From Pseudomonas sp. R84 (GTDB lineage: Bacteria > Pseudomonadota > Gammaproteobacteria > Pseudomonadales > Pseudomonadaceae), in contig NZ_CP019426.1 in the NCBI RefSeq assembly GCF_009834515.1, forward strand, positions 3,027,501 to 3,091,500: a DNA stretch of 64,000 nucleotides, given 5' to 3'. Of this stretch, positions 468 through 32,086 are shown one piece after another; position 1 is the stretch's first letter; each line of letters opens with the position of its first letter. A program made the translations under genes and the position numbers. Below the pieces are notes generated by a model. That model did not search any database. It had not been told where the DNA came from and worked only from the letters and a program-made list of their open reading frames with translations.

Positions 468-2666
468 ATGGAAATCAAGGTCAACTTTCTCGACAACCTT
501 CGACTTGAAGCCAAGTTCGACGACTTCACGGTGATCGCCGATCAGCCCATCCGCTACAAGGGCGATGGCTCGGCACCGGGGCCGTTCGACTACTTTCTGG
601 CATCGTCGGCGTTGTGTGCGGCGTACTTTGTGAAGTTGTACTGCGACACCCGCAACATTCCGACTGAAAACATTCGCCTGTCGCAAAACAACATCGTCGA
701 CCCGGAAAACCGCTACAACCAGATCTTCAAGATCCAGGTCGAGTTGCCGGCGGACATCTCCGAGAAAGATCGCCTGGGCATCCTGCGTTCCATCGATCGC
801 TGCACGGTGAAGAAGGTCGTGCAGACCGGTCCGGAATTCATCATCGAGGAAGTCGAGAATCTCGACGCCGATGCTCAGGCGCTGTTGATGCCGGTGGCCG
901 GTTCGGACGCAGGCACCTTCATCGCCGGCAAAGACCTGCCGCTGGAGCAGACCATCGCCAACATGTCGGGCATTCTGGCCGACCTGGGGATGAAGATCGA
1001 AATCGCTTCGTGGCGCAATATTGTGCCCAACGTCTGGTCGCTGCATATCCGCGATGCCCATTCGCCAATGTGTTTCACCAACGGCAAGGGCGCGACCAAA
1101 GAAGGCGCGCTGGCCTCGGCACTGGGCGAATTCATTGAGCGCCTGAATTGCAACTTCTTCTACAACGACCAGTTCTGGGGCGAAGAAATCGCCAACGCCG
1201 AATTCGTCCACTACCCGGACGAACAGTGGTTCAAACCAGGTCCGAAAGATGAGTTGCCGAGCGAGATTCTCGACGACTACACCCGGAAGATTTACAACCG
1301 TGATGGCGAGTTGCGCGGTTCGAACCTGTTCGACACCAACTCCGGCAACACCCAGCGCGGCATCTGCTCGCTGCCGTTTGTGCGGCAGTCCGACAATGAA
1401 GTGGTGTACTTCCCGTCCAACCTGATTGAAAACCTTTACCTCAGCAACGGCATGAGCGCCGGCAACACCCTCGCCGAAGCGCAGGTGCAGTGCCTGTCGG
1501 AAATCTTCGAACGCGCGGTCAAGCGCGAAATCCTCGAAGGCGAAATGGCCCTGCCGGACGTGCCGCAGGAAGTCCTGGAAAAATACCCGAGCATCCTCGC
1601 CGGCATCAAAGGTCTGGAAGAGCAGGGCTTCCCGGTGCTGGTCAAGGACGCCTCGCTGGGCGGTGAATTCCCGGTGATGTGCGTGACCCTGATGAACCCG
1701 CGCACCGGCGGCGTGTTCGCCTCGTTCGGCGCGCACCCGAGCCTGGAAGTGGCGCTGGAACGCAGCCTCACCGAACTGTTGCAGGGCCGCAGTTTCGAAG
1801 GCCTCAACGACTTGCCGCAGCCGACCTTCTCCGGTCAGGCCGTCACTGAACCGAACAACTTCGTCGAGCACTTTATCGACTCCAGCGGTGTGGTGTCGTG
1901 GCGTTTCTTCAGTGCCAAACCGGACTTCGAATTCGTCGAGTGGGACTTCTCAGGCGATGGCGAAAACTCCAACGCCGAAGAGGCCGCGACGCTGTTCGGC
2001 ATCCTCGAAGACATGGGCAAGGAAGTCTACATGGCGGTCTACGAGCACATCGGCGCCAAGGCCTGCCGGATTCTGGTGCCGGATTACTCGGAGATCTACC
2101 CGGTCGAAGACCTGATCTGGGACAACACCAACAAAGCCCTGCAATTCCGCGCCGACATTCTCAACCTGCACAACCTCAGCAAGGTCGGCCTGCGCAACCT
2201 TGCACAAGGTCTGGAAAACAGCGAGCAGGACGATTACACCGAAATCACCACGCTGATCGGCGTCGAGTTCGACGACAACACGCCGTGGGGCAAGCTGACC
2301 ATTCTGGAACTGCGCCTGCTGATCTGCCTCGCGCTGCAGAAGTACGAGCAGGCCAAGGATCTGGTTGAAGCTTTCCTGCAATACAACGACAACACCGTTG
2401 AGCGCGGCTTGTTCTATCAAGCGGTCAACGTCGTGCTGGAGATGGAACTGGACGAGGATCTGCAGCTGGAAGATTACGAAGCCAACTTCCGTCGCATGTT
2501 CGGCGATGAGCGGATGGATGCGGCGATTGGCTCGGTCAACGGCAGTGTGCGCTTCTACGGTCTGACGCCGACCAGCATGAAGCTGGAAGGGCTGGATCGG
2601 CATTTGCGCTTGATTGAGAGCTATAAGAAGTTGCACACGGCGCGGGCGAATGTGAAGCAGGGCTAA
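468..2666 (+). CDS. OsmC domain/YcaO domain fusion protein
   Basis: A 732-aa protein. Residues about 1-140 form an OsmC-like domain (peroxiredoxin-fold family) with FDYFLASSALCAAYFVKLYC around the expected cysteine helix. Residues about 180-560 form a YcaO domain like that of E. coli YcaO, with the glutamate-bearing helices SALGEFIERL, CLSEIFERAV and LERSLTELLQGR that coordinate ATP/Mg in this family. The C-terminal 150 residues match the helical tail of E. coli YcaO rather than the proline-rich tail of azoline cyclodehydratases. E. coli YcaO (about 586 aa, no OsmC part) has been linked to RimO-dependent beta-methylthiolation of ribosomal protein S12. No precursor peptide or partner enzyme is nearby, so a housekeeping role is more likely than natural-product synthesis. 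Confidence 0.9.
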   Translation: MEIKVNFLDNLRLEAKFDDFTVIADQPIRYKGDGSAPGPFDYFLASSALCAAYFVKLYCDTRNIPTENIRLSQNNIVDPENRYNQIFKIQVELPADISEKDRLGILRSIDRCTVKKVVQTGPEFIIEEVENLDADAQALLMPVAGSDAGTFIAGKDLPLEQTIANMSGILADLGMKIEIASWRNIVPNVWSLHIRDAHSPMCFTNGKGATKEGALASALGEFIERLNCNFFYNDQFWGEEIANAEFVHYPDEQWFKPGPKDELPSEILDDYTRKIYNRDGELRGSNLFDTNSGNTQRGICSLPFVRQSDNEVVYFPSNLIENLYLSNGMSAGNTLAEAQVQCLSEIFERAVKREILEGEMALPDVPQEVLEKYPSILAGIKGLEEQGFPVLVKDASLGGEFPVMCVTLMNPRTGGVFASFGAHPSLEVALERSLTELLQGRSFEGLNDLPQPTFSGQAVTEPNNFVEHFIDSSGVVSWRFFSAKPDFEFVEWDFSGDGENSNAEEAATLFGILEDMGKEVYMAVYEHIGAKACRILVPDYSEIYPVEDLIWDNTNKALQFRADILNLHNLSKVGLRNLAQGLENSEQDDYTEITTLIGVEFDDNTPWGKLTILELRLLICLALQKYEQAKDLVEAFLQYNDNTVERGLFYQAVNVVLEMELDEDLQLEDYEANFRRMFGDERMDAAIGSVNGSVRFYGLTPTSMKLEGLDRHLRLIESYKKLHTARANVKQG

Positions 2667-2698
2667 GGCTGTTTCACATTGAGTTTGGCGGTGGATTC

Positions 2699-2851
2699 AC
2701 CCCTCACCCCAGCCCTCTCCCCTAGGAGAGGGAGCTGATCTGTGAGCTTTTCAAAACCCGAGTTCGACTCGATATCTCAAGTCGGCGTATTTCAACCAAA
2801 CAACTCGGTCAGTCCCCTCTCCCTCTGGGAGAGGGTTAGGGTGAGGGGCTT
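2699..2851. repeat. REP-type repeats with CCCTCTCCC/GGGAGAGGG hairpin
   Basis: Two close copies of the REP-like core follow the YcaO gene. The first (about 2700-2731) reads CCCTCACCCC then CCCTCTCCCC and GGAGAGGG. The second (about 2810-2851) has the CCCTCTCCC / GGGAGAGGG hairpin followed by TTAGGGTGAGGGG. Between them lies TCGACTCGATATCTCAAGTC and CTCGGTCAGT, the same flank as in the tandem arrays at 6.6-7.4 kb and 29.2-29.6 kb. The right copy overlaps the 3' end of the convergent thioesterase gene and may act as a bidirectional terminator. Confidence 0.8.
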
Positions 2852-3351
2852 TTGCTTTTTCGCCCATGCGCCGAATCCGCCAGTTGCCCGGTATCGACCC
2901 GCACAAACACCGAATCACCCACTGCCGTCAGCACATCCCCGGCATACACCTCACAGATAACCCGCGTCTTGCGCCCAACTTCACCCTCGACCTTTGCCCG
3001 CAAAACCAGCGTCACGCCCATCGGCGTCGGCTTGATGAATTTGATGCCAAGGTTGCCAGTGACGCAGTCGATGCGCGGCAGGCTGCGGGGTTCGCGGTTT
3101 TCGGCGCGGTAGTGGTAGGCCATGGCCGTCCAGTTTGAATGGCAGTCGACCAGCATGGCGATCAGGCCCCCGTAGACCAGATCTGGCCAGCCGCAGTACT
3201 TGGCCTCCGGCAGATGTTCGGCGATCACGTGCTCGCCGTCTTCATGCCAGTGGCTTTTGACGTGCAGGCCGTGGGGGTTGCGGCCGCCGCAGCCGTAGCA
3301 AACGCCTTCTGGCGCGGCGAGGTCTTGCAGAGGGGTAACGAGGCTGGACAT
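2836..3351 (-). CDS. PaaI-family (hotdog) thioesterase
   Basis: A 171-aa hotdog-fold protein. The pattern CYGCGGRNPHGLHV near residue 18 and YGGLIAMLVDCHSNWTA near residue 60 is that of small PaaI/YbgC-like acyl-CoA thioesterases, where HGG/YGG-L..L.D forms the catalytic helix. The C-terminal half carries the usual beta strands (GNLGIKFIKPTPMG, RKTRVICEVYAGD). The last residues (SAHGRKSKSPSP) are encoded by the REP repeat, so the tail is probably not functional. The gene lies 9 bp downstream of the diguanylate cyclase gene's end on the same strand. The substrate cannot be read from the sequence. Confidence 0.85.
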   Translation of the reverse strand: MSSLVTPLQDLAAPEGVCYGCGGRNPHGLHVKSHWHEDGEHVIAEHLPEAKYCGWPDLVYGGLIAMLVDCHSNWTAMAYHYRAENREPRSLPRIDCVTGNLGIKFIKPTPMGVTLVLRAKVEGEVGRKTRVICEVYAGDVLTAVGDSVFVRVDTGQLADSAHGRKSKSPSP

Positions 3352-3359
3352 GGTTTTTA

Positions 3360-4517
3360 TTATCCTGGAGTGGTGAGTCCGGTCAGGCGCAGGCGATTGC
3401 GTCCGCCGCGTTTCGATTCGTAGAGGGCGGCATCGCCTTGTTCTATCAGAGCGGTGAGGTTGGCCGGCGGGTTGTCGAACAGGCTGGCGCCGATGCTCAG
3501 GGTCACGGCAGCGGTGGTGGGGAATGTCTGCGAAGTGGTGCTGAGAAACTGCTCGCGCAATGTGTTGCCCAGTTCCATGACGCGCTCACTCGATGCGCTG
3601 TTGAGGAGGATGACAAACTCATCACCGCCCAGACGCGCTGTCAGCGCATTGCGCGGCAGCACCGAGCGGATCATCTCGCTCAACGCGATCAGCAAACGAT
3701 CGCCGGCGGTGTGACCGTACTGGTCGTTGACCAGTTTGAAGTTGTCGATGTCGATCAGCAGCAGGGCGCCGGGATGCTCCGGCGAAACCTGTTCGAGCAG
3801 GCGCGGCGCGCGTTTTTCCAGAGCGCGGCGGTTGTACAGGGCGGTCAGTGGGTCGCGCTCGGCGAGGCGGGCGATCTGTTTTTCCCGGCGATAGCGTTCG
3901 GTGCCGGTCATCGACAGGGCGATCAACATGATCGCCATCGCGCCTTCAACCAGAGAAATCTGGATGATCTCGCCACGAAACGCCGCGAGATCGATCAACG
4001 TCCCGGGGATCACCACCGTCAGGGCTTTGGCTACGTAGAAAATTCCGTGACCGAGCAGCACATAGCGCAATTGCACCGCGCCGACGCTCAACGATTTGCC
4101 ATGGGGGCGCAGCAGTGAGCTGGCCTTGAGGGTCGCCAGCGCCACCAGCAACGAATTGGCCGCCAGCATGACCTTCGACCACAGTGGCCCGTCCGGCAGC
4201 AACAGCATGATCAGCCAAGTGACAAAGATCAGGTACCAGGCCGGCGACAACCGTATCTGGGTGAAGCGCGCTACGCCGAGCAGGAACAGGAAGTGCGCGG
4301 TCACCAGCAAGCCGTTGGCGAACCAGATGCCGATCAGCAAAAAGCCGCTGCTGCGCAGCAGGGCCAGGGTGGAGCCGACGGTGATGGTGGCGAAACCGGC
4401 GCTCCAGAACAGTAGCGAAGGCTCACGAATGCTGCGCCATTCGATCGCCAGATACAGCGCGGCAGCGGCTGCGAGGGCGATGGAAATGGTCAACATCGTA
4501 GGTGGGTCGAGCGGCAT
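3360..4517 (-). CDS. Membrane diguanylate cyclase (GGDEF)
   Basis: A protein of about 385 aa. The first about 205 residues form roughly six hydrophobic segments (an integral-membrane sensor without a recognised name). A GGDEF domain follows, with DPLTALYNRRAL at its start, the Mg/GTP loop IDIDNFKLVNDQYGH and an intact signature ARLGGDEF around residues 294-301. Catalytic residues are present, so c-di-GMP synthesis is expected. The RxxD inhibitory site is not found at its usual place upstream of GGDEF (RNALTARL instead), so product inhibition may be absent. The start ATG at 4517 gives MPLDPPTML; an in-frame TTG at 4544 would add nine residues and has no better ribosome-binding site. Confidence 0.9.
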   Translation of the reverse strand: MPLDPPTMLTISIALAAAAALYLAIEWRSIREPSLLFWSAGFATITVGSTLALLRSSGFLLIGIWFANGLLVTAHFLFLLGVARFTQIRLSPAWYLIFVTWLIMLLLPDGPLWSKVMLAANSLLVALATLKASSLLRPHGKSLSVGAVQLRYVLLGHGIFYVAKALTVVIPGTLIDLAAFRGEIIQISLVEGAMAIMLIALSMTGTERYRREKQIARLAERDPLTALYNRRALEKRAPRLLEQVSPEHPGALLLIDIDNFKLVNDQYGHTAGDRLLIALSEMIRSVLPRNALTARLGGDEFVILLNSASSERVMELGNTLREQFLSTTSQTFPTTAAVTLSIGASLFDNPPANLTALIEQGDAALYESKRGGRNRLRLTGLTTPG

Positions 4518-4665
4518 TTCTTGATGAGCCTGTCTGATTGGCAATTAGACCGGCGATTGTAAGCGTTCGGGCGGTTTTTTCGCAGAGGCCTTATTGCCGC
4601 GCAGACCATTGGCTACGGGAGGGCGCAGTCGTCAGCCGCCACCCTGACCACATGCCGTTCGGTCA

Positions 4666-4911
4666 TTACTTGGGCGTGAGCCAGGTGTCGACGACTCGAC
4701 GATCCAGTTCCTCCCAGTAGGCCATGCCCAGCACGCGCGTGGTGTTGAGCCCGCGCAGGTAACCGCGCAACTGATTGGCGGTGTCGATGATGAGCTGCGG
4801 GTCGGTGATGCCTTCGTTCAGCAATACGCTTTCGTACTGAACCAGATACTCGGCCACACGCTCGCGGAAATCGGGCAGAACGGCGTCACGGATCAGGTCA
4901 AACGTTCTCAA
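4666..4911 (-). CDS. Small conserved hypothetical protein
   Basis: An 81-aa soluble helical protein (MRTFDLIRDAV at the N terminus, VVDTWLTPK at the end). I recognise no family. The start is a TTG at 4911-4909 placed six bases after a good GGAG ribosome-binding site, with no upstream ATG option, which supports it being a real gene with a rare start codon. It sits alone between the diguanylate cyclase gene and a divergently transcribed exported protein. There are no cysteines, signal peptide or membrane segments. Confidence 0.6.
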   Translation of the reverse strand: MRTFDLIRDAVLPDFRERVAEYLVQYESVLLNEGITDPQLIIDTANQLRGYLRGLNTTRVLGMAYWEELDRRVVDTWLTPK

Positions 4912-29190: not shown

Positions 29191-29645
29191 TTCACCTCGA
29201 TATCCCACGTCGGCGAACCTCGCCCAAACACCCCGGTCAGTTCCCTCTCCCTTTGGGAGAGGGCTAGGGTGAGGGCATTTGCAGGCGGCACCAACCGCTT
29301 CCTCACCAAAATTCACCTCGGTATCCCACGTCGGCGTACCTCTCCCAAACACCCCGGTCAGTCCCCTCACCCTCGGGGAGAAGGCCAGAGTGAGGGAATT
29401 TGTAGGCGGCACCAACCGCTTCCTCACCAAAATTCACCTCGGTATCCCACGTCGGCGTATCTCGCCCAAACACCCCGGTCGGTCCCCTCACCCTCGGGGA
29501 GAAGGCCAGAGTGAGGGAATTTGTAGGCGGCACCAACCGCTTCCTCACCAGAGTTCGACGCGATATCTCACGTCGGCGTACCTCTCCCAAACACCACGGT
29601 CGGTCCCCTCTCCCTCTGGGAGAGGGCTAGGGTGAGGGGCTTTTA
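29191..29645. repeat. Tandem array of four 121-bp REP-containing units
   Basis: Four direct repeats; TTCACCTCG or TTCGACGCG begins at 29191, 29312, 29433 and 29554, a period of exactly 121 bp. Each unit has CTCGGTATCCCACGTCGGCG or a variant, CCAAACACC, CGGTCAGT (or GGTCGGT) and a REP core; the core is perfect in units 1 and 4 (CCCTCTCCC/GGGAGAGGG) and diverged to CCCTCACCCTCGGGGAGAAGG in units 2 and 3. A linker, GGCGGCACCAACCGCTTCCT, is specific to this array. It starts 22 bp after the GlxA gene. Confidence 0.88.
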
Positions 29646-29796
29646 AACACCAGCACCCACACACGTTTAACTTACACGCACTGTTACGCCATAACGGCTA
29701 CAACACCTTGCGCCGTTACCTACGCGTACGCCAGAATCCGCCGGCTTACGCGCCTTGAGGCGGGCTGTATCGTTTCCCTGTCACTGCAAAACAGTG

Positions 29797-29940
29797 ATCG
29801 GGTTTGGTAGCCCGTTTTCTAAGCGTAATGCGCCGCTATATGCAGTCTCTTTTCGGGGCTCGGTTTTATATGGTGGCCATGCGTGGGGCTCCTTCGGGAG
29901 CGCCGGGGTTTACTCGCTTAGACCGGTCTACCAACCTGCG
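29797..29940 (+). ncRNA. C4-like antisense RNA in the DUF6124 leader
   Basis: The leader holds sequence a1 TTTGGTAG (29803-29810), b1 CTAAGCG (29819-29825), then a structured core, then b' CTCGCTTAG (29913-29921) and a' CTACCAA (29928-29934). b' and a' are exact complements of b1 and a1 in nested order, with an extra CCG/CGG pairing between them, so they close one composite helix. The core has a hairpin AGTCTC/GGGGCT and a UUCG-capped hairpin GCTCC-TTCG-GGAGC. This arrangement, and repeated copies of a and b downstream, is that of the C4 antisense RNA of phages P1/P7, known from proteobacterial prophages. The exact ends are uncertain. The assignment rests on pattern and memory, not on a covariance search. 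Confidence 0.7.
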
Positions 29941-29957
29941 CAATGGTCACCACCTCG

Positions 29958-30000
29958 TTTGGTAGCGTGAGTGATGGCTCCTTATTTTTTGCTAAGCGAG
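29958..30000 (+). promoter_or_regulatory. Downstream a2/b2 target sites of the C4-like RNA
   Basis: TTTGGTAG recurs at 29958-29965 and CTAAGCGAG at 29992-30000. Both are complementary to the central a' and b' segments. b2 covers the GCGAG ribosome-binding region eight bases before the ATG at 30009, so pairing in cis or trans would block translation of the first DUF6124 gene. Confidence 0.65.
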
Positions 30001-30008
30001 TGTCATCT

Positions 30009-30374
30009 ATGTTCAAAATTACGCCAAACCCGCCAGAAACCGATCCAATCCCCTACGACGCCGCGCTCGAACCTCAAAACATCAAAGAGGCCACCGACCG
30101 CGCGATCAACTTCTACCTCAATCCCTCCGCGCTGAAGACCTCAATACCCACCCGCAAGACCGGCAAGATCTACCTCATCGACCCCACAGTAGATAACGAA
30201 ACCCTGCTCGTCGAAGCCACTGAAACATTGTCCTCCGCCACTGACATGGCCCGTGAACTCGCCGATTCGATTGATCCTTCACAGCGCAAAAAGATGCTGA
30301 TCCTGCAACAGGTGATCATGCTCAGTGAGTTGGTAGTCGGACGAGTCCTGGATAACCAGCGATTGCCGCACTAG
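30009..30374 (+). CDS. DUF6124 family protein (first copy)
   Basis: A 121-aa soluble protein (MFKITPNPPETDPIPYDAA at the start) with a central helix KEATDRAINFYL and the conserved acidic-to-hydrophobic segments DPTVDNETLLVEATETL and MLILQQVIMLSELVVGRVLD. These match the Pseudomonas-restricted DUF6124 family (earlier called DUF3077), of unknown function. Translation starts at ATG 30009, inside the region controlled by the leader RNA. A paralogue follows 118 bp downstream. Confidence 0.82.
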   Translation: MFKITPNPPETDPIPYDAALEPQNIKEATDRAINFYLNPSALKTSIPTRKTGKIYLIDPTVDNETLLVEATETLSSATDMARELADSIDPSQRKKMLILQQVIMLSELVVGRVLDNQRLPH

Positions 30375-30492
30375 TCACGATGCAGATGGGTGAGGGGGCT
30401 CGCTCCCTCATTGCACAGAAGCGTCCGCAATCGGGGCGCTTCAGGCCTTCTATTAAAGAGCCGCCAACGGTTCTTGTCTGGAGTTTCAGCTG

Positions 30493-30849
30493 ATGTCTCA
30501 GCCACCCGAACCACCGGTCACAGATCTGGTATCGCCGTACGCGTCGCCCAATTCAAGAAAGCTGCACGAAGCGGCAGAGCGTGCGCTCGACCATTACCTG
30601 TTGCCTGCCGCGATCATGGCCGAACCCTATACGCCCAACGCTCTGTTCATGGCCAACCCGCAAGCAGACACCGAGTCGTTGCTGACCAATGCTTGCGGGT
30701 CGTTGGCGTCCGCGTCGGTCATGCTCGGTAATTTTGCCGGAATGCTGGAGGGCGCAGATCGTCATACGCTGCTGGGCATTGCGCAAGTGGTCATGTTGGG
30801 GGAATTGGCGGTGAACAGAGCGTTGGATCTGGTTGTGCCAACTGAGTGA
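30493..30849 (+). CDS. DUF6124 family protein (second copy)
   Basis: A 118-aa paralogue of the preceding gene: EAAERALDHYLL, NPQADTESLLTNACGSLASA and TLLGIAQVVMLGELAVNRALD align with the corresponding segments of the first copy, whereas the N terminus differs (MSQPPEPPVTDLV). GGAG sits about nine bases before ATG 30493. The gap between the copies contains a GAAGCG/CGCTTC hairpin at about 30418-30443, which may limit read-through. Its function is unknown; the C4-like leader is not repeated in front of this copy. Confidence 0.78.
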   Translation: MSQPPEPPVTDLVSPYASPNSRKLHEAAERALDHYLLPAAIMAEPYTPNALFMANPQADTESLLTNACGSLASASVMLGNFAGMLEGADRHTLLGIAQVVMLGELAVNRALDLVVPTE

Positions 30850-30890
30850 TCGCGCACGTTAGTCGGGATTGAGGGTGTTTGGTCGGGCGT

Positions 30891-30957
30891 GATCGCGAGC
30901 AGGCTCACTCCTACAGGGGAACGCATTTCAAATGTAGGAGTGAGCCTGCTCGCGATG
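30891..30957. repeat. REPIN: inverted pair of GAGC-type REPs
   Basis: GATCGCGAGCAGGCTCACTC with CTACA and its inverse complement (TGTAGGAGTGAGCCTGCTCG) form a REPIN hairpin downstream of the second DUF6124 gene. It is a close relative of the doublet at 15.8 kb, with CACTCCTA in place of CGCTCCCA. Confidence 0.9.
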
Positions 30958-31020
30958 ACGCCAGTTCAGGCAAAGAATCTGCAAAATGTGACCATCCCTT
31001 AATCCCATCCTCAAGTAATC

Positions 31021-31053
31021 AAGCAGTCAGCCATTGCGGCTGACTGCTTTTTT
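31021..31053. terminator. Rho-independent terminator
   Basis: AAGCAGTCAGCC and GGCTGACTGCTT form a 12-bp stem with a five-base loop, followed by TTTTTTG on the + strand. It lies between the DUF6124 genes and the convergent hydrolase gene and could serve both, although the minus-strand tail is less T-rich. Confidence 0.75.
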
Positions 31054-31057
31054 GTTT

Positions 31058-32086
31058 CTACAGGTGATCGGCGTCGATCACGGCTTTGGCGAACGCCTGC
31101 GGATCTTCCTGCGGCAGGTTGTGGCCAATCCCGCCATTGATCAAACGGAACTGATATTTGCCGGTAAAACGTTTGGCGTAATCCTCTGGCGCCGGGTGCG
31201 GTGCACCGTTGGCATCGCCTTCAAGGGTGATGGTCGGCACGCTGATCGACGGCGCGGTAGCGAGCTTCTGTTCCAGTGCGGCGTATTTCGCTTCGCCCTG
31301 CACCAGGCCCAGCCGCCAGCGGTAGTTGAACACGGTGATGTCGACATGATCGGGGTTCTCCAGCGCCTTGGCGCTGCGATCGAACGTGGCGTCATCAAAC
31401 TTCCACTGCGGCGAAGCGGTTTGCCAGATCAGCTTGGCGAAATCATGCGTGTTCTTCTCATACCCGGCACGGCCACGGTCAGTCGCAAAGTAGAACTGGT
31501 ACCACCACTGCAACTCAGCCTTGGGCGGCAGCGGGTTTTGCCCGGCGGCCTGATTGCCGATCAAATAACCGCTCACCGACACCAGCGCCTTCACCCGTTC
31601 CGGCCACAGCGCCGAGACGATGTCCGCCGAACGCGCGCCCCAGTCATAACCACCGAGCACCGCTTGCTTGATCTTCAGCGCGTCCATGAAGTCGATGACG
31701 TCACTGGCCAGCGCCGCCGGTTGGCCATTGCGCAGGGTGTCTTTGGAAAGGAACTGCGTATCGCCATAACCGCGCGCATACGGCATCAACACCCGATAAC
31801 CCTTGGCCGCGAGGAACGGCGCGACTTCGTCGTAGCTGTGAATGTCGTAGGGCCAGCCGTGCAGCAGGATCACCACTGGGCCATTCGCAGGGCCGGTTTC
31901 GGCGTAGGCGACGTCGAGCACGCCGGCCTTCACATGCTTGAGCGGGCCGAAAGGCGAGGGCGCGGAATAGCTGACGCCCGCAGGTTCAGTGGTTTGCGCC
32001 TGAGCGCTGCCAAAAGCGCCGAGCAACGACAAAGCCAGAATCGACAAGCCGAACGCGGTTTTGCGGGTGTGCAGTGCCATCTTCAT
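31058..32086 (-). CDS. Exported alpha/beta hydrolase, epoxide-hydrolase-like
   Basis: A 342-aa protein with a signal peptide (ALSLLGAFGSAQAQ). Core motifs: oxyanion LLHGWPYDIHSYD, and a nucleophile elbow GGYDWGARSAD in which the nucleophile is aspartate, as in epoxide hydrolases and haloalkane dehalogenases rather than esterases; the catalytic histidine is in GIGHNLPQEDP. A cap domain lies between (WWYQFYFATDRGRAGY). AGGAG lies seven bases before ATG 32086. Export makes a role in detoxifying external epoxides or haloalkanes possible; the substrate is not known. Confidence 0.87.
   Translation of the reverse strand: MKMALHTRKTAFGLSILALSLLGAFGSAQAQTTEPAGVSYSAPSPFGPLKHVKAGVLDVAYAETGPANGPVVILLHGWPYDIHSYDEVAPFLAAKGYRVLMPYARGYGDTQFLSKDTLRNGQPAALASDVIDFMDALKIKQAVLGGYDWGARSADIVSALWPERVKALVSVSGYLIGNQAAGQNPLPPKAELQWWYQFYFATDRGRAGYEKNTHDFAKLIWQTASPQWKFDDATFDRSAKALENPDHVDITVFNYRWRLGLVQGEAKYAALEQKLATAPSISVPTITLEGDANGAPHPAPEDYAKRFTGKYQFRLINGGIGHNLPQEDPQAFAKAVIDADHL

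Follow-up and report, generated by a model that had tools for sequence, protein, structure and literature searches.

A C4-type antisense leader before DUF6124 genes in Pseudomonas and its many differently addressed copies

The leader and the genes behind it

Near the middle of the window, the whole stretch of 64,000 nucleotides of Pseudomonas sp. R84 that we analysed, two open reading frames both encode DUF6124 proteins (PF19619) behind a leader with two copies of a segment pair, one on either side of a central region that can pair with both. The preliminary description had called this arrangement a C4-like switch. Its six segments (a1, b1, b', a', a2 and b2) and the ATG at 30009 proved correct letter for letter, and matches over cut-off to two Rfam families, with that to the C4 model above its gathering score, uphold the name. 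The features are as follows.

29746..29773, + strand: promoter-like TTACGC, 16-nt spacer and TATCGT, from the sequence
29767..29818, + strand: c4-a1b1 domain, hairpins bearing a1 (Rfam RF03163, 49.1 bits, cut-off 46.7)
29803..29810, + strand: a1, TTTGGTAG, from the sequence; partner of a' in the minimum-energy fold
29819..29825, + strand: b1, CTAAGCG, from the sequence; partner of b' in the minimum-energy fold
29866..29957, + strand: C4 antisense RNA, model positions 1-87 (Rfam RF01695, 65.8 bits, cut-off 45)
29913..29921, + strand: b', CTCGCTTAG, loop of the P3 hairpin, from sequence, Rfam and fold
29928..29934, + strand: a', CTACCAA, junction strand, from sequence, Rfam and fold
29958..29965, + strand: a2, TTTGGTAG, from the sequence
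29992..30000, + strand: b2, CTAAGCGAG, overlapping a weak Shine-Dalgarno, from the sequence
30009..30374, + strand: DUF6124 gene 1 (ORF1), 121 aa (PF19619, 64.5 bits, cut-off 27)
30493..30849, + strand: DUF6124 gene 2, 118 aa, without a C4 of its own (PF19619, 70.9 bits)
31021..31049, + strand: terminator-like hairpin and T run 3' of gene 2, from a terminator scan

A strict consensus promoter scan gave no match at 29746..29773. Three terminator-like sites were found in 29640-31060 against 1.4 expected; the scan placed terminator-like hairpins at 29799-29814 and 29844-29860. An isrK (RF01394) match over a1/b1, at 29780-29852, stayed below threshold (38.6 bits, gathering score 50), and the Rfam scan of the whole window returned over cut-off, besides the C4 locus, two tRNAs and no second C4. 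In the 6.6-Mb genome, TTTGGTAG-N(6-34)-CTAAGCG matches at exactly two sites, the a1-b1 and the a2-b2 of this locus; the a-N(6-34)-b pattern read backwards matches at one. By eye, we also noted a REP-like inverted repeat (GATCGCGAGCAGGCTCACTCCTAC and its complement) at 30884-30963, 3' of gene 2, and repeats around GTCGGTCCCCTC and TGTAGGCGGCACCAACCGCTTCCTCACC at 29400-29640, upstream of the leader.

Folded on its own, the 89-nt C4 part adopts a three-stem form (z -4.18) that places b' in a hairpin loop and a' in the junction, and the minimum-energy fold of the whole leader contains seven a1:a' and seven b1:b' pairs (z -4.36). As had been proposed, the centre can pair with either the upstream or the downstream pair, and the downstream b2 lies at the ribosome-binding region of the next gene, with the weak Shine-Dalgarno GAG (29998-30000, by eye) inside it. 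Switching by exposure of the Shine-Dalgarno once C4 is gone was unsupported by folding, its mean unpaired probability being 0.30 in the full leader and 0.36 in the mRNA after C4.

As a benchmark we used phage P1, whose GenBank record annotates a1, b1, C4, a2, b2 and icd. The distance between the starts of a1 and b1 is 14 in P1 and 16 in the window, that between the last base of b2 and the start codon 11 and 9, and that from the start of the -10 to a1 37 and 35, the -10 of the window being recognised by likeness only; both loci have 3 nt from the end of C4 to a2, with CCACC at 29954 as the end in the window. P1 also gives the same trio of Rfam matches as the window (68.8, 51.0 and a sub-threshold isrK of 35.1). 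From the conserved GG and CCACC and the P1 annotation, the mature C4 of the window would start at GG 29872-29873 and end with CCACC at 29954. The c4-icd-ant of P1/P7 and the window locus share order, spacing, a three-stem C4, a'/b' set against two target pairs and a b2 near the start codon. They differ in cargo, which is icd-ant in the phages and DUF6124 in Pseudomonas, there in tens of copies per chromosome with differing addresses; the phage immunity operon has an antirepressor downstream and the window locus DUF6124 instead, which places it outside that operon type.

Copy number, distribution and cargo

The genome that holds the window contains 36 C4 matches (35 over cut-off), 32 c4-a1b1 matches (16 over cut-off) and 33 DUF6124 matches, and 29 of the 36 C4s stand in front of DUF6124. 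The earlier suggestion of a domesticated control device fits a chromosome with this many C4 matches. Four DUF6124 genes lack a C4 of their own; three have no C4 match nearby at E 1, and the fourth is gene 2 of the window. A PrrF sRNA match (L068 1987-2134, 158.4 bits) lies in the stretch around one of the DUF6124 genes lacking a C4.

Across a genus sample of 149 genomes, C4 was found in 138 and in none of the other 11, DUF6124 in 118, and 34 genomes held at least 27 C4 candidates each. Four further complete genomes, picked from these 34 for high C4 counts, had 36 (G010), 41 (G036), 55 (G049) and 33 (G125). DUF6124 occurred in 6 of 119 genomes of the family sample, all of one genus out of 19, and 14 cellular control genomes had no DUF6124. 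In the class sample, 18 of 274 genomes had C4, including our own, the other 17 with 1-6 among the matches listed under strict filters. All 79 loci with ORF1 from named records are from Pseudomonas, and the naming of the sampled genus as Pseudomonas rests on them.

C4s were fetched from G010 (33 of 36), G036 (39 of 41), G125 (30 of 33) and G049 (8 of 55). One set of 138 loci comprises our own genome (G000), G010, G036 and G125, with G049 left out; a second of 129 keeps only loci that, by a rule of our own, have a start codon 30 nt or more after C4 and encode a protein of 60 aa or longer, which removes nine. Of 146 P3 parses, two had low confidence; both were retained. A looser promoter-like pattern lies upstream of a1 in 120 of the 138 C4 loci; dinucleotide shuffles gave 9.9 (sd 2.7). 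The C4 family undergoes RNase P-type processing to an RNA of about 77 nt, and by analogy the GG conserved at the predicted C4 5' end (137/138 loci) would be the start of the Pseudomonas RNA. By thresholds of our own, 64 of the 129 full leaders form the C4 outer stem, and in 53 a' pairs upstream of C4; such modelling singles out neither state as dominant. Two solo C4s, L221 (G010:C1:3097680-3097766) and L263 (2009-2098), have neither a2/b2 nor a start codon in the usual place downstream and for that reason could act only in trans.

DUF6124 lies behind 108 of the 138 C4s by our own profile (E below 1e-5), with broken or miscalled frames counted as other. Among the seven other C4s of our own genome, Bro-N follows two, DUF3077 one, and small proteins with no significant Pfam match three; the seventh (L004, G000 348774-) precedes, by eye, a short ORF whose stop overlaps the start of a DUF3077-like frame in an ATGA, recalling how icd and ant overlap in P1. 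Other cargo in the four genomes likewise includes Bro-N, DUF3077 and a small family without a Pfam name, whose subgroups are interrelated (E 8e-11 to 4e-14) and not detectably related to DUF6124. Members of a small C4-controlled family (LLIDT.., ~90-105 aa) were seen at L056, L064, L062 and loci of G125 and G010, the three scanned having no significant Pfam match. By coordinates, a C4 immediately precedes five of the six DUF3077 genes of G049. Kinship between DUF6124 and other cargo families was unsupported by profile comparison (DUF3077 E 0.01, probability 4%).

The DUF6124 protein was modelled as helical, with three helices of which the last two form a long hairpin (pLDDT 74.4, pTM 0.48). 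Comparing this model with PDB folds was uninformative, none matching at E 0.001 or better, and DUF6124 had no sequence match in PDB at E 1. Neither window protein matched a PHROG at E 1, an NCBIfam model over cut-off or, for known anti-phage defence, a PADLOC model at E 1.

Phage and plasmid records contained no tblastn match to ORF1. Pseudomonas phage DVM-2008 (GenBank) carries a more distant DUF6124 (108.6 bits) and a C4 near prtR, and 12 predicted viral contigs encode an ORF1 relative, the twelfth, with just 129 nt before the match, being the one in which no C4 was found. The family is thus not purely chromosomal, a correction to the preliminary description: C4 occurs on 11 of the 12 viral contigs and in one GenBank phage. 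The phage-derived origin that the preliminary description had also raised is plausible for the switch, on the basis of the Bro-N genes behind two C4s, and no more than conjectural for DUF6124, which the family sample places in a single genus. At least 7 nt of b' are shared with loci elsewhere by 11 of 13 viral-contig C4s, a redundant set in which L261 and L262 share one leader and L260 is identical in its core to the bacterial locus L096.

In L260 (706-6200, viral contig IMGVR_UViG_2627853808), an AbiJ-like gene (PADLOC E 4e-4, Pfam AbiJ_NTD5 E 1e-20) comes after C4 and DUF6124 genes, and a tail gene comes next. L257 (327-5735) likewise has C4 and DUF6124 genes, then an AbiJ-like gene by a prophage tail gene. 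On the opposite side lie a candidate defence gene, PDC-S51, in L260, and PDC-S31 and mREase_II in L257. The layout of the two is possibly that of a cargo hotspot.

Own-locus pairing and change of code

Across the 36 loci of our own genome, a' x a2, b' x b2, a' x a1 region and b' x b1 region were each stronger on average with the partner of the same locus, and for none of the four was the observed mean reached in 20000 permutations. For b' x b2, self pairing averaged -14.0 and cross pairing -7.5 kcal/mol (0/20000 permutations), with the own partner best in 21 of 36 loci, or 25 with the boundaries of the 138-locus analysis. Over the 138 loci of four genomes, self energies were -12.3 to -13.4 and cross energies -5.9 to -6.5 kcal/mol; own b2 was the best b' target in 103 (0/5000 permutations in each genome), and when the target was restricted to -40..+4 relative to the start codon, the own b2 region was best in 90 of 129. 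The same b' showed no self preference for CDS +10..+54 or the promoter region as controls (permutation counts 786 to 4788 of 5000), and a slight one for CDS +60..+104 in three of four genomes (117, 198 and 65 of 5000; ~0.6 kcal/mol), perhaps from relatedness. The b' duplex covers -10 in 114 of the 129 loci and overlaps an SD-like motif in 106, 16 of the 129 genes having no such motif. The covariation anticipated in the preliminary description was found, the paired segments changing together in the 36 paralogues, the 138 loci of four genomes and the syntenic orthologues.

A private a' was rejected. This segment is common to many loci, within groups, and own a2 was its best target in 5 of 36 loci of our own genome and 7 of 138 in the four genomes. 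By unanchored duplex energy, another b2 outscores the own one in 35 of 138 loci, and with a' and b' taken together each genome has 50 to 77 ordered cross pairs whose energy differs from self by no more than 1 kcal/mol. Shared a' and near-self cross pairs thus make some cross-talk possible. Identical a'+b' addresses occurred in 2 of 2362 within-genome pairs (28 of those pairs coming from the eight G049 loci), one a tandem copy with a cut-short frame and one a 96.6% identical duplicate. In twelve within-genome pairs, 7 nt or more of b' are in common; a' differs in ten, in two of those by a single base, so the address has two parts. Between genomes, the b code is common to 85 of 8223 pairs, partly by descent. 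Uniqueness of codes within a genome is weak evidence for avoidance, because random 7-mers rarely coincide and sharing between genomes is partly inherited; the argument therefore rests on self-pairing and on leaders that follow the code.

The place of the window locus has an AraC-type regulator upstream and a hydrolase and a U32 peptidase downstream, with not all neighbours in every record. At this place in related species (17 loci), the protein is 87-100% identical and the b code changes, the codes being CGCTTAG, TGTCTTGA, TATCTTGA, TGTTTTGA and GCTAATTCC; in L069, a protein identical to that of the window comes with a different code. L069, L070, L071 and L078 stay close to the window in the promoter (98-100% identity), the a1 hairpins (95-100%) and the first half of ORF1 (96-98%), but identity drops to 68-71% in b1 and spacer, to 44-50% for the b' loop and to 56-59% for the b2 spacer. 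Over these segments, identity to the window is 93-100% for the seven loci that have its code, and the other six of the 17 have a different code, with flanks in part more diverged too. Between L070 and L078, one b' position changes from G to A, matched by C to T in b1 and b2 (by eye).

Identity over the 38 nt before C4 outside b1 was 0.69 for pairs at the same place with another code (145 pairs), 0.75 for another place with the same code (82), 0.93 for the same place and code (45) and 0.67 for neither (1098). A 48-nt spacer, which overlaps b1 by 5, gave 0.68, 0.75, 0.92 and 0.67 in the same class order, and with 33 nt the ranking of the classes was unchanged; the comparison omits L091, which has no C4 by our pattern. 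ORF1 follows place, with an identity of 0.88 at the same place with another code versus 0.75 at another place with the same code. Whole leaders agree, L070 being 89.8% identical to the non-syntenic L110 and L080 90.5% identical to L103. Because leaders follow code more than place, these sequences suggest that leader cassettes have been exchanged between loci, on the basis of pairwise identities whose differences are moderate and whose pairs are not independent.

The protein alignment is a selection of 32 rows, from which L081, L093, L139 and L091 (early stop or no usable start) and L084:6383-6739 (stop at the coordinates used) are omitted; its row L086:6333-6686 probably begins upstream of the true start. 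L081, L093 and L139 (6001 onwards) are ORF1 homologues with early stops (68, 61 and 71 aa) in which the C4 pattern is present. At L091 (5711-6000), the ORF1 homologue is leaderless, without C4, and the stretch before it resembles a transposase end by eye.

Mechanism, alternatives and meaning

Citron and Schuster reportedly found that the C4 of P1/P7 is cut from its leader and blocks a ribosome-binding site through a2/b2. PMC5320573 sets out the same P1/P7 model, as does the P1 annotation, and PMC12197685 reviews the P1/P7 C4. We consider it very probable that the window leader is a C4-type antisense module acting on DUF6124 genes and present in tens of copies, nearly all differently addressed. 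Family membership, order and spacing, own-locus pairing and contact with the ribosome-binding region were computed; processing of C4, its action in trans and silencing would follow by analogy with P1/P7 and Acinetobacter. One promoter would give one transcript with a1/b1, C4, a2/b2 and then the DUF6124 genes. C4 would be excised from it, its a' pairing with a2 and its b' with b2; the latter contact covers the ribosome-binding region of DUF6124, so that DUF6124 would be made only if C4 is absent, titrated or held by a1/b1. As nearly all a'+b' addresses differ, each C4 should mainly silence its own gene and an incoming copy with the same address.

C4 is recorded in Proteobacteria and phages (Weinberg 2010, PMC2864571), C4-antisense RNA genes are mentioned near strain-specific loci (PMC13414232), and multi-copy C4-like RNAs, apparently processed, are described in Acinetobacter baumannii as the first such group to its authors' knowledge (PMC5320573). 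Multi-copy chromosomal C4 is thus already known from Acinetobacter, whose Group 1 sRNAs likewise comprise many chromosomal C4-like RNAs per genome with variable specificity segments. There, phage or other bacterial RNAs are the targets proposed in PMC5320573, whereas most Pseudomonas C4s have a matching a2/b2 before the adjoining gene. Our literature search, which reached few subscription journals and no supplements and saw sources in part, returned no link between C4 and DUF6124, no private addresses, no code exchange and no mention of DUF6124.

Several other readings bear on the same evidence. That the repeats arose by chance in a G+C-rich leader has a probability close to nil, being refuted by the Rfam matches, own-locus pairing, permutations and control regions. 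PMC5320573 proposes for Acinetobacter that such RNAs mainly regulate unrelated host mRNAs in trans; for Pseudomonas this is highly improbable, since b' fits its own b2 in the 36 and 138 loci and the exact address of the window locus has no exact match elsewhere in the genome. A cis-only attenuator, in which pairing with a1/b1 or a2/b2 sets translation within one molecule and no free C4 acts in trans, draws on the a1/b1:a'/b' minimum-energy fold of the window leader and on the 53 of 129 loci with a' mostly paired upstream of C4, but the P1 architecture kept in C4, including the GG start in 137 of 138 loci, and the apparent processing of C4-like RNAs in Acinetobacter (PMC5320573) make it very unlikely.

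A short a1/b1 RNA might instead serve, like IsrK, as a decoy for C4 in trans that switches the gene on. Published work describes isrK-like hairpins before a gene with a sequestered ribosome-binding site, as here, in Gifsy-1 isrK-orf45-anrP and the Burkholderia isrK/C4 unit (PMC4825925, PMC4603805), activation of anrP translation in trans by Gifsy-1 IsrK (PMC4825925), and C4 and isrK as one transcriptional unit in Burkholderia (PMC4603805). Both the window (38.6 bits) and P1 (35.1) have a sub-threshold isrK match over a1/b1, and terminator-like hairpins occur in the window at 29799-29814 and 29844-29860. In contrast to Gifsy-1, where the short RNA activates (PMC4825925), the Pseudomonas loci have no general terminator before C4: a hairpin and T run lies just before it in 32 of 138 (13 after mononucleotide shuffling of the hairpin part), above chance but not general, and we regard the decoy as unlikely. 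It is distinctly unlikely, too, that C4 is the antitoxin of an RNA toxin-antitoxin-like system with DUF6124 as a harmful product. P1 Icd behind C4 is annotated as an inhibitor of cell division, and the prophage copies adjoin candidate defence genes, but the two DUF6124 proteins lack a PADLOC or PHROG match and a PDB fold match at E 0.001, and some genomes hold dozens of copies.

Beyond the C4-type module itself, we tentatively propose, at somewhat less than even confidence, that the modules form an intragenomic heteroimmunity network with private a'+b' addresses, in which cassettes are exchanged between chromosome and prophage and a resident C4 silences an incomer with the same address. Such silencing would keep the codes within a genome apart.

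Our results suggest that a device of phage immunity has become, in bacteria, a large set of gene silencers with separate addresses. If the anatomy works as described, a cell would hold 30-50 antisense switches of one structure, separated by short matching segments. If true, this would provide a natural test bed for the number of orthogonal RNA regulators per cell, show how a regulator and its two targets shift specificity together, and bear on the persistence of phage immunity types in bacterial chromosomes. It would also give the first regulatory handle on DUF6124, an uncharacterised protein family common in Pseudomonas (118/149 genomes).
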